Under the pieces are notes generated by a model, which was given only the letters and a program-made list of their open reading frames with translations, was not told where the DNA came from and did no database searches. A DNA stretch of 64,000 nucleotides, from contig NZ_JAUCBM010000004.1 of NCBI RefSeq assembly GCF_030362795.1, forward strand, positions 186,001-250,000, given 5' to 3'. Source of the stretch: Pseudochrobactrum kiredjianiae. Lineage in GTDB: Bacteria; Pseudomonadota; Alphaproteobacteria; Rhizobiales; Rhizobiaceae. The position numbers and the translations under genes are program-made. Each line of letters opens with the position of its first letter. Within the stretch, counting starts at the first letter, position 1. Positions 10,351 through 63,830 of this stretch are shown piece by piece.

Positions 10351-10542
10351 GCATTATCCAAAACTTGATCCAAAACTTGAGTCTTTATGGTGATAACCGG
10401 CTCAAAACTGCGCCGGACTATTTCCATCTCTAAAGCAACATATTCACATCTATCAGCTCTCTGATAAACCCGAACGTCTGTATCATATAGTCCCACAGCG
10501 GTTCCAGATAAGACTGAAACGTTAAAACCGCTGTATCTATTT

Positions 10543-10596
10543 GTTTTTACGCATTATCCAGTGCCAAAACCGCTTCGCACTTTTGCTGGAAATGCT
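10543..10596. repeat. Dispersed repeat of the GCATTTCCAGCAAAAGTG family, copy 1
   Basis: The reverse complement of this stretch closely matches 54819-54870: AGCATTTCCAGCAAAAGTG, then a CCGGTTTTG-like core, then GGATAATGCGTAAAA. It lies in the divergent mlaE/epimerase spacer. I see nothing else firm in the rest of this spacer (10351-10542 and 10597-10645) beyond where promoters must be. Confidence 0.65.
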
Positions 10597-10645
10597 ATAA
10601 ATGCATCATTACAGACGTAAAATTCTATAATTACGGACAGCACCA

Positions 10646-30647: not shown

Positions 30648-30707
30648 TACTTTAGTTTATCGCATTGTCATGCCATTCAAATTTCCCAACTTGAATGTGA
30701 AATGCTT

Positions 30708-30812
30708 TAGAGCGCCGTGTGCCATACTTGGCACACAAAACTCGCTCTAACACTTTAAAATTAGAGCATAATTTCTCCATAAACTGATCCAAGTTGAAGG
30801 AATTATGCTCTA
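30708..30812. repeat. Dispersed two-hairpin palindromic repeat, copy C
   Basis: TTAGAGCG and CGCTCTAA arms enclose an inner GTGTGCCA...TGGCACAC hairpin; a second hairpin TAGAGCATAATT...AATTATGCTCTA follows. This is the same two-stem layout as copy A. It fills the spacer before the gyrA terminator. Confidence 0.75.
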
Positions 30813-49090: not shown

Positions 49091-49241
49091 CAACGACAAC
49101 AGAGAGCAGGCTTAACTACTCTCTCACGCGGTCAAAGTCTTGGGAGGATGCAACTCAGGCGCGGTATATCGCAGCCGCCTGTAACAAGGATACGAGTTGG
49201 ACGCGTATTTTATCAGCAAGGCTAACGCCTTGCTTTTTTTT
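49091..49241 (+). ncRNA. Probable trans-acting small RNA
   Basis: An independent small transcript of about 150 bases. Promoter-like hexamers lie upstream (49057-49062 and 49079-49084). Hairpin 1 is AGAGAG (49101-49106) with CTCTCT (49119-49124); hairpin 2 is CAGGCG (49156-49161) with CGCCTG (49176-49181); a perfect 8-bp terminator stem (49215-49222 with 49227-49234) ends in seven T. A GGGAGGATG sequence lies at 49142-49150 before hairpin 2. The layout recalls the alphaproteobacterial suhB/MmgR small RNA family, but I cannot confirm this. An 83-codon frame overlaps it but runs through the terminator and is not supported. Confidence 0.6.
49215..49241 (+). terminator. Terminator of the small RNA
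   Basis: AGCAAGGC-taac-GCCTTGCT followed by seven T. Confidence 0.93.
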
Positions 49242-49376
49242 ACATCTTAATAATACAAATATAGTGGGATTATAGAAGTCACTTTTGCTTTAACGCGATA
49301 ATAAAGTGCTCCGCCCCTTATTCCTGACCAGGCTGCTCGCGTTTCAGAGATACACGCTCAGGTCTCTGTCGTTTCA

Positions 49377-49690
49377 GTCAGATGTTACCATCTGACTGCG
49401 AAATAGCTTTTAGTTGGACGCATTATCGCGGACGTCAGATGTTACCATCTGACTGCGAAATAGCTTTTAGTTGGACGCATTATCGCGGACGTCAGATGCT
49501 ACCATCTGACTGCGAAATAGCCTTTAGTTGGACGCATTATCGCGGGCGTCAGATGTTACCATCTGACTGCGAAATAGCTTTTAGTTGGACGCATTATCGC
49601 GGACGTCAGATGTTACCATCTGACTGCGAAATAGCTTTTAGTTGGACGCATTATCGCGGACGTCAGATGCTACCATCTGACTGCGAAATG
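49377..49690. repeat. 57-bp tandem repeat, five full copies and one partial
   Basis: Copies start with GTCAGATG at 49377, 49434, 49491, 49548, 49605 and (partial, inside the regulator gene) 49662. Each holds a perfect hairpin GTCAGATG-TTAC-CATCTGAC (CTAC loop in copies 3 and 6), then TGCGAAATAGC and TTAGTTGGACGCATTATCGCGG. Copies differ at only a few bases. The unit corresponds to the last codons and stop of the AraC-type gene, so the array arose from its 3' end. There are no unique spacers. Each copy carries the gene's stop codon. Confidence 0.93.
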
Positions 49691-50732
49691 CTTTGGGGCT
49701 CATACCCGTCACACGCAGGAACTCGCGATTAAAATTGGATTTGGTCAGAAAGCCACTGGCAAAGGTAATTTGTGTTACCGGCTCATCCGTCTCGCGCAGC
49801 AGACGGCACGCCTCTTCCACGCGAAAATTATTCACATAAACCGAAACACTTATCCCGCGACAACGATTAACTGCCTCAGAAACATGGCGTGGCGGTTTGC
49901 GCAATCGATGTGCAATCCGTTTTAAATTCAATTCCATATCTTCGTAGAGCTGCTTTTCCCGCATCAAAGCGTCCAGCTCCGCCACGATAGCAATATGCTG
50001 CTCCGTCGTCAGAGCCGTTTCCGTGCTTACCACTTGTGATGCTGGCTCCGCCTCCCCGCCGTTTTCATCACTCGTACGGTTGTTCAGCGCAACGCCTGCC
50101 GCTGCACCAAGAAATAGCAGTGACAGAATATTCGTCACCAAGATGATAGACGGTGAATAATGGCCACCGCTCCAGAAAAAATCAAAATTTATCAGAAGAT
50201 CAACGATCACAGAGCCGATCAGCATCAAACCGGTAATCTGCATTGCCCGATAAGAACGCAGCACACCATCCAGTCTTGCTGCGATCAACACATCCGGCCC
50301 TTTATAGGCAAGCCACAATAAGGCAACGCCATAGATCAAAAAAATCACAATAATAGCCAGAGCGGCCAAATCTCGTCGGAAAAGTAACAGGCTGAAAACA
50401 ACAATCACCGGCAGCAAATGCGGCCATATCTTTTTAATTCGCAATGCCTGCACGCTGTCAGCCACCGTGAGGCTATAAAAACTTAAATAAGCCAATCCGG
50501 CAATGATTGAGGCCAGCAATATCTGTAATGGCAAAACCGCAGTGATTTCATAGCCCCAACGCAATCCGAGCAATATAGATTGCACCATATAAATACTGAT
50601 CAGGACGATGAAAAACTGATCCGTACGATTGCCCGCCTCACGCTTGCGCAGCAATTGCCAAAGCAACAGCCCCATCAAGATTGTCACCACAAAAGGCAGA
50701 GGAATAAAAAGCACCGGCACAACCTTAAACAA
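49638..50732 (-). CDS. AraC-type regulator with N-terminal membrane domain
   Basis: A 364-aa protein. Residues 1-225 contain about seven hydrophobic segments; residues 255-360 are the AraC/XylS double helix-turn-helix (RIAHRLRKPPRHVSEAVNRCRG, VEEACRLLRETDEPVTQITFASGF and NFNREFLRVTGMSPKAFR). This is a membrane-anchored sensor-regulator. No ATG opens the frame: the first possible starts are TTG at 50732 and GTG codons shortly after, the next ATG being codon 20. The last codons lie in the tandem repeat array. It is divergent from a lipoprotein gene that may be its target. Confidence 0.82.
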   Translation of the reverse strand: MFKVVPVLFIPLPFVVTILMGLLLWQLLRKREAGNRTDQFFIVLISIYMVQSILLGLRWGYEITAVLPLQILLASIIAGLAYLSFYSLTVADSVQALRIKKIWPHLLPVIVVFSLLLFRRDLAALAIIVIFLIYGVALLWLAYKGPDVLIAARLDGVLRSYRAMQITGLMLIGSVIVDLLINFDFFWSGGHYSPSIILVTNILSLLFLGAAAGVALNNRTSDENGGEAEPASQVVSTETALTTEQHIAIVAELDALMREKQLYEDMELNLKRIAHRLRKPPRHVSEAVNRCRGISVSVYVNNFRVEEACRLLRETDEPVTQITFASGFLTKSNFNREFLRVTGMSPKAFRSQMVASDVRDNASN

Positions 50733-54704: not shown

Positions 54705-55124
54705 TCCCCCTCCTCAAAAACTATTTAATTCGGTACATCATCATTTGGCATTTTCCCTGCTCTTTTAAAGACAGAGCCGGATGCGCACAGTCGTGACAAT
54801 GCAAATTCAACATATTAAAGCATTTCCAGCAAAAGTGGGTACCGGTTTTGCGTAGGATAATGCGTAAAACAAAGAATTAGAGTGGTTCCAACGATTCAGT
54901 CATAACTGGAAACACTCTAATTTCATGACCGCTAAAGTGATGGGAAGCAAGAATTGTTCTCTAAAATTCCCAACTTACAAAAGGAAAACTGAAGTTTTGC
55001 ACTTCAACTTCCCATTTATAACAAAACCGGCCACGTCTGCCAGTTTATCGCGTTCACTTCAGCTTTACTCAAATGTAATCTCAGAAACCGTATTTCATAA
55101 AATAACATTGCGTTGTGCGATGCT
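54705..55124. other. Intergenic region between rnj and birA
   Basis: 420 bases. It contains a dispersed repeat (listed separately) and the rnj promoter. No other gene or terminator was recognised. Confidence 0.45.
54815..54922. repeat. Dispersed repeat of the GCATTTCCAGCAAAAGTG family, longest copy
   Basis: AGCATTTCCAGCAAAAGTGG, a CCGGTTTTGCG core and GGATAATGCGTAAAAC are followed by a hairpin AATTAGAGTG (54875-54884) with CACTCTAATT (54913-54922), perfect over 10 bp. The first 52 bases closely match the reverse complement of 10543-10596. Confidence 0.7.
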
Positions 55125-63726: not shown

Positions 63727-63830
63727 CAGAGCATTTCCAAATTAATGAAAATGTGAAAATGCTCTGTTTTTTGTTGACGCAATTTCGGACGGAAAACCGG
63801 TTCCCACTTTTCCTGAAATTGCTTTGCAAT
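63727..63830. repeat. Dispersed palindromic repeat between nuoG and nuoH
   Basis: CAGAGCATTT (63727-63736) pairs with AAATGCTCTG (63757-63766); then GCAATTTC (63779-63786) pairs with GAAATTGC (63815-63822) around a core GGAAAACCGGTTCCCACTTTTCC, the widespread Hyphomicrobiales repeat motif. Related to the repeats at 10.5, 11.9 and 54.8 kb. Confidence 0.7.

Follow-up and report, generated by a model that had tools for sequence, protein, structure and literature searches.

The last codons of an AraC-type regulator gene in Pseudochrobactrum kiredjianiae lie inside a tandem array of hairpin-forming repeats, and the locus raises two questions: where such an array comes from, and whether it does anything for the gene whose end it forms. 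We addressed both in a window of 64,000 nucleotides, the whole stretch of DNA analysed (contig NZ_JAUCBM010000004.1, positions 186,001 to 250,000), and in the genomes of relatives. The 57-bp tandem array described in the initial annotation is real: TRF reported a repeat at 49377-49694 with a period of 57, 5.6 copies, 96% matches, 0% indels and a score of 601, and scored the three remaining tandem repeats of the window at 50-57. Read on the minus strand, the array consists of a first unit that is the gene's own end, four further full units and a truncated sixth (Table 1). Five copies plus a parental segment, each with a stop codon and a hairpin, had been described; six hairpins are indeed present, whereas the stop codons number five, the most distal copy, unit 6, breaking off after the hairpin and lacking the last codons and the stop. 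The repeat unit takes in the gene's final 18 sense codons together with its stop. The hairpins were also placed correctly in the would-be 3' untranslated region of an AraC-type gene, given the PF12833 domain and the units past the stop codon; the first inner stem beyond the stop begins at the 14th nucleotide after it.

Table 1. Coordinates of the array, its neighbours and further element copies in the window.
Feature	Position	Strand	Description	Support
Unit 1	49694-49638	minus	half-element forming the gene's 3' end, KAFRSQMVASDVRDNASN-TAA	82.6 bits
Units 2-5	49637-49410	minus	four complete 57-bp copies past the stop codon, hairpin and in-frame TAA in every one	TRF and covariance-model matches
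Unit 6	49409-49377	minus	truncated copy	weak model match 49367-49402, 20.4 bits
AraC-family regulator gene	49638..50732	minus	364 aa	ORF; PF12833 HTH_18 residues 273-351, E 2.2e-19
ar9 small RNA (RF02343)	49096..49241	+	terminator-like site 49215-49234	111.4 bits, gathering 45
Dispersed copy	30649..30708	minus	with second palindrome	43.6 bits, E 1.4e-9
Dispersed copy	54817..54876	+	with second palindrome	35 bits, E 3.4e-7
Dispersed copy	63766..63825	minus	with second palindrome	32.1 bits, E 2.2e-6
Dispersed copy	10538..10598	minus	with second palindrome	28.1 bits, E 3.1e-5

The units are strongly structured and nearly uniform. All six carry the 8-bp inner stem GTCAGATG/CATCTGAC without a mismatch. 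Folding energies are -21.4 kcal/mol for unit 1 (z -4.3) and -120.6 kcal/mol for the whole array (z -8.7), and none of 200 and 100 shuffles, respectively, reached this stability. In the window scan, Rfam at gathering scores matched nothing in the array. Between any two of units 2-5 there are 0-3 differing positions: units 2 and 5 have the same sequence, a single private change marks unit 3, and unit 4 departs from unit 2 at two positions, at one of which it agrees with unit 1. Because 57 is 3 x 19, the opposite strand is open as well, and a 116-aa ORF (49382-49732) crosses the array without interruption. This openness, pointed out in the initial annotation, holds here and for the equivalent frame in the related genome G006, whereas that frame meets a stop within the repeats in G001. 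The ORF matches Pfam DUF1187 above the cut-off (E 5e-11), but with no individually significant stretch, as repeats can produce, and it is therefore given no coding status; with the frame broken in one of the two relatives compared, a repeat protein on the opposite strand was rejected.

The unit belongs to a dispersed family. Searching our genome with the unit sequence itself gave one additional weak place, and a pattern search gave 10 places, five of them in the array, against 0 for the reversed control. A covariance model built from eight copies, unit 1 among them, gave at least 106 matches at E<=0.01, at 105 places, one palindrome being matched on both strands, and at least 120 at E<=1; five array units are among the former, and the counts are lower bounds because 150 of 649 candidates were scored. 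Model matches at E<=0.01 occur in 24 of 61 relatives' genomes: all seven Pseudochrobactrum genomes carry them (at least 35 to at least 86 each, with at most 89 candidates scored per genome), as do 17 of the 54 genomes outside the genus. By crude ORF calls, 57 of 65 own copies lie between ORFs, six overlap them and two stand at locus edges. The full element, as seen in 17 full copies picked as clear examples, is about 104-108 bp long and has two arms joined by an A-rich linker; the array unit is the first half of this two-armed element as found in typical copies, and one copy (L170) shows a tandem spacing of 103.

An alignment of 37 matches fitted to the model (34 distinct, three array units included) bears on whether the structure is kept. 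In it 96.4% of cells pair, and 11 of 17 pairs show double changes; double-changed cells number 68, where shuffles give 19.7 and slid alignments 0-4, and the covariation score is 0.334, against 0.123 shuffled and at most 0.048 slid. Judged from this alignment, the stem is maintained by compensatory changes in the element family. Covariation is weak in the second arm, which holds two of the eight double-changed pairs in the 17 chosen copies, the other six lying in the first arm. Two full copies folded singly gave z -3.6 and -2.9; in the first of them (L182) the lowest-energy fold lacks the expected base of the first arm.

These data bear directly on the origin of the array. Growth from the gene's own 3' end, as originally proposed, is contradicted by the recurrence of the unit as the first palindrome of an element at about 100 other places in the same genome. 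A reading in which the unit arose and was duplicated at the gene's end, the dispersed copies being escapees or coincidence, could appeal to its first 18 nt (KAFRSQ), which fit the conserved end of the AraC HTH domain reaching residue 351, and to unit 1 being the top model match in the genome (82.6 bits); however, unit 1 is itself one of the model's eight sequences, and two-armed elements are common in our genome and present in other genera too. Homologues of the gene argue the same way: those of Phyllobacterium end in SPKAWR... without the unit, and the 76 homologue loci examined outside Pseudochrobactrum gave no model match inside the gene's end. This origin is largely refuted and we consider it very unlikely. 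Instead, we hold, with a probability of roughly 0.8, that a dispersed palindromic element, MITE-like and of CIR/Bru-RS/RIME type, had its first arm amplified in tandem to give the array. Many copies mostly outside genes, a kept structure and a target site duplication, the features by which we call it MITE-like, were all found.

The element resembles the CIR, Bru-RS and RIME repeats of alphaproteobacteria, a class already known. RIME and the A/B/C palindromes of Sinorhizobium were reportedly treated by Osteras in 1995, and mRNA stabilisation by REP is said to have been treated by Newbury in 1987. In E. coli, REP sequences have effects on translation near stop codons. The REP/BIME sequences of enterobacteria are likewise dispersed hairpins with grouped copies and positions behind genes; they differ in that the unit here is longer and that our genome has no Y1_Tnp gene. 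Y1_Tnp (PF01797) gave 0 matches in our genome, with 5 of 14 control genomes positive, and a REP family driven by RAYT was rejected on this ground. According to the cited passage, RNase R together with PNPase targets REP-bearing mRNAs (PMC12320835).

CIRs, the CcrM-associated intergenic repeats of Caulobacter (Chen and Shapiro 2003, described in PMC2229807), are portrayed in the cited part of that source, like the element here, as about 110 bp long with two long inverted-repeat arms, a linker and TA termini, in alphaproteobacteria including Brucella. This layout (about 110 bp, two arms, linker, TA termini) was found in the 17 chosen full copies; the likeness is one of layout, by description. 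Differences also emerge against the same part of PMC2229807. It gives a GANTC conserved at the loop, whereas here this CcrM methylation site, occurring in 29 of 66 copies and, for comparison, in 73 of 528 control windows, lies in the linker in 23 (for example L168), in the first loop in only 4 of the 66, and nowhere in the array. It lists the CIR target site duplication as unknown, whereas TA(R) is duplicated here, and it reports CIRs as not inside genes, whereas one copy here forms a gene's end. If the elements are CIRs, a target site duplication would thus be supplied for a repeat class where the cited part of PMC2229807 lists it as unknown.

Bru-RS1 and Bru-RS2 of Brucella are palindromic repeats of 103 and 106 bp (Halling and Bricker 1994, as cited in passages of PMC10800456, PMC2266754 and PMC3163539), and the element here, at about 104-108 bp, matches them in length (103-106 bp) and palindromy, by description. 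IS711, associated with Bru-RS, targets YTAR with duplication of TA, according to the relevant passage of PMC2266754. The half-unit arrays and stop-codon insertion present here go unmentioned in the cited passages of the Bru-RS sources. RIME and the A/B/C palindromes give dozens of structured intergenic repeats per rhizobial genome (PMC2573895, in the passage cited), a likeness, again by description only, to dispersed structured intergenic repeats in rhizobia; some REP elements are transcribed, according to the cited passage of PMC2873474. Rickettsia palindromic elements, which in the cited passage of PMC10969869 supply codons of host genes, are comparable as palindromic repeats that give host-gene codons; here, in contrast, only gene ends are concerned, in different frames and with no shared peptide. 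Our searches of the open literature found nothing on point for Pseudochrobactrum repeats or Rhizobiales intergenic repeats.

How a family of about a hundred copies may be accommodated among genes is suggested by its ends. Left ends read YTAR in 46 of 65 recognised own copies, and right ends in 41 of 45, although the search motif for right ends nearly demands YTAR. ORFs of at least 100 aa ending near the ends of 66 own copies cluster at the element's terminal TAG/TAA, nine on the left and six on the right, against 1-3 at each other position. An element end is an ORF stop codon at 15 of 110 recognised ends, compared with 41 of the 1439 YTAR sites that lie outside elements (odds 5.4, p 3e-6) and, among YTAR sites outside kept ORFs, 23 of 681 (odds 4.5, p 5e-5), the control sites being non-independent and the ORFs crudely called. 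Thirteen of these 15 ORFs have Pfam support; those at L236 and L242 have no hits.

Filled and empty sites were compared at three loci, where TA(R) or CTAG is duplicated and the stop codon regenerated. At the cobalamin adenosyltransferase locus, our genome (G000) has CTAG-element-CTAG and G005 a single CTAG, which is the stop TAG of that gene read on the other strand. The M24 peptidase gene was found in six genomes, always with 366 codons; its stop carries the element in G000 and G005, is a single CTAG in G001 and is a TAA without element in the three others. Of seven genomes, six have an M16 peptidase gene of 435 codons, the end differing in G003; the element stands at the gene's stop in G000 and is absent in G005, G001, G002 and G004, and in G006 a copy in opposite orientation lies behind TGA. 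Because gene length is unchanged between filled and empty genomes, insertion is silent for the protein at these loci. As read from these sequence comparisons, full elements insert at YTAR with TA or CTAG duplicated, often in a gene's TAG or TAA stop. Among the papers listed from the open literature, none was on point for Bru-RS with stop codons or for REP with C-terminal extension, and the novelty of stop-codon insertion is not established. If the pattern holds in more genomes, it would explain how about a hundred copies fit into a gene-dense genome without broken proteins; if the choice of stops is real, the element would hang hairpins on mRNA ends while leaving proteins unchanged.

The copy at the AraC-type gene departs from this pattern: its left end reads CCAAAGC instead of CTAAAGC, the TA is lost and the reading frame passes through. 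No empty site was found for this copy. Seven ORFs ending in or just behind an element among the 66 copies were checked, and two have Pfam support, the AraC-type gene and a MarR-family gene (L229:663-1118) whose last six codons, EHVALK, and stop are element sequence in a frame different from that at the AraC-type gene. With five of the seven ORFs lacking a Pfam hit and the two supported genes ending in different frames, an RPE-like peptide insertion was rejected.

Among the seven Pseudochrobactrum genomes, one per species, the AraC-type gene ends inside a half-element in five. Six hairpin units are present in G000; three in G006, where the inner stem of two includes a single G-T pair; two, followed by a degenerate third, in G001; and one plus a degenerate second in each of G005 and G003. 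The gene's end in G004 and G002 has no recognisable unit and no model match, and the unit is therefore dispensable. Copy number thus varies between species (about 6, 3, 2, 1 and 1 hairpins, none recognisable in two); the initial annotation had suggested that it could vary between strains, and its picture of few differences and homogenised copies is likewise borne out by the near-identity of units 2-5 and by unit variants shared within species, TCTTGCTAA in three G006 units and TCCAACTAA in the five full G000 units. That the copy number is an assembly artefact might be suspected from near-identical units in a 45-contig draft, on which the exact number rests; the separate assemblies of two relatives with two and three units at the same place, and the private variants in units 3 and 4, make this explanation very unlikely.

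A second array speaks to the same process. In our genome another half-element array (C1:18141-18346, or L270:1501-1706) has a period of 59 and 3.5 copies, and its flanks align at five further Pseudochrobactrum loci; at this place TRF gave 2.8 copies in G004, 2.8 in G005 and 2.5 in G002, while G001 and G003 have no TRF row and show BLAST pairs of 102 and 105 nt of the two-unit query. Scanning 70 own loci with TRF gave periods of 40-130 at the two array places only. Further half-element arrays were found by TRF in G022 (4.0 copies), G032 (2.2) and G035 (2.1), and a unit pair without a TRF row was read by eye in G027.

Conservation at the AraC-type locus could point to a domesticated device in which selection acts on hairpin number as a means of tuning mRNA level or the termination of translation. 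The inner stems are perfect in six units, and the 51-nt tail is 94-96% identical among G000, G005, G001 and G006 (86-90% with G003), against 73-77% for the gene bodies in five of the six pairs of these four (G000-G005, 87%). However, at another orthologous place 52-55 of 60 bases are conserved in a control copy, so the high tail identity is not special and the case for a special constraint at this locus is weakened; moreover, two of seven species lack a recognisable unit, and similar arrays stand at an unrelated locus. Domestication is, on this balance, distinctly unlikely. In G004 the gene body is 90% identical to that of G006 and two ar9-region windows match at 198 of 199 positions, while the tail is 55% identical. 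With both sides matching G006 closely, the tail and following spacer look replaced or lost. Base shuffling gave p<0.02 in two of eight comparisons of the G002 and G004 tails with the element. The trees built for the seven species largely lacked resolution.

The array also lies between the AraC-type gene and ar9, a small RNA gene convergent with it, and strong hairpins in this position could end or block transcription between the two. The window scan, however, found five terminator-like sites (hairpin plus T-run), all of them outside the array; one on the minus strand, at 49124-49101, lies beyond it. A Rho-independent terminator inside the array was rejected for want of a scan site there, and a terminator or barrier role in general is unlikely. 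Nothing was found linking the ar9 small RNA to the array hairpins.

Returning to amplification of a mobile half-element, the following course would account for the locus. An element enters a YTAR in a stop codon, TA or CTAG being duplicated, the stop regenerated and protein length kept; at the AraC-type gene the reading frame continues into a half-element, from which it takes its final codons and stop. A short motif shared by the left end and the linker (CTAAAGC/CTAGAGC, ACTAAAG) would let the half-unit form, and slippage or unequal exchange between hairpin-bearing direct repeats would have multiplied, shrunk and homogenised it. By analogy, the transcript would end in up to five stem-loops past the stop codon, and these may hinder 3'-5' exonucleases, delay the termination of translation or hold back read-through toward the convergent ar9; as the REP analogy suggests, the hairpins may protect the mRNA end, with a fitness effect that is probably small or none. 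Most likely, then, array and element are MITE-like passengers that place REP-like hairpins in the 3' untranslated region, any functional role being putative. A bolder version, in which the family spreads via stop codons silently for the protein, became coding at the AraC-type gene and there tunes the regulator by half-unit number, strikes us as rather unlikely. The locus in any case offers a natural series, one gene followed by about 0, 1, 2, 3 and 6 hairpins, in which an mRNA effect could be sought; if there is none, it would be a clean case of neutral repeat turnover reaching coding sequence.

In a plasmid collection the locus was absent, two records matching and none covering 80%, and two full-element queries matched Pseudochrobactrum records only (4 and 1). 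Some further observations concern surroundings of element copies. At window positions 30753-30811 (minus strand), a further palindrome, AGAGCATAATTCC...AAATTATGCTCT, adjoins an element copy; it also adjoins copies in L051 and L226 and perhaps represents another repeat family. At L259-L263, a hairpin with T-run is followed directly by an element copy 3' of the same gene in five Pseudochrobactrum genomes. A short stretch beside the ar9 terminator (window 49240-49275) is strongly conserved across six aligned species. Outside the genus, the element starts exactly at the stop codon of the AraC-type homologue in Allorhizobium taibaishanense (L136, 5072-5133) and A. undicola (L152, 5051-5153), and at L140 it lies 158 nt behind the homologue; the Allorhizobium stop-codon elements are independent of those in Pseudochrobactrum.
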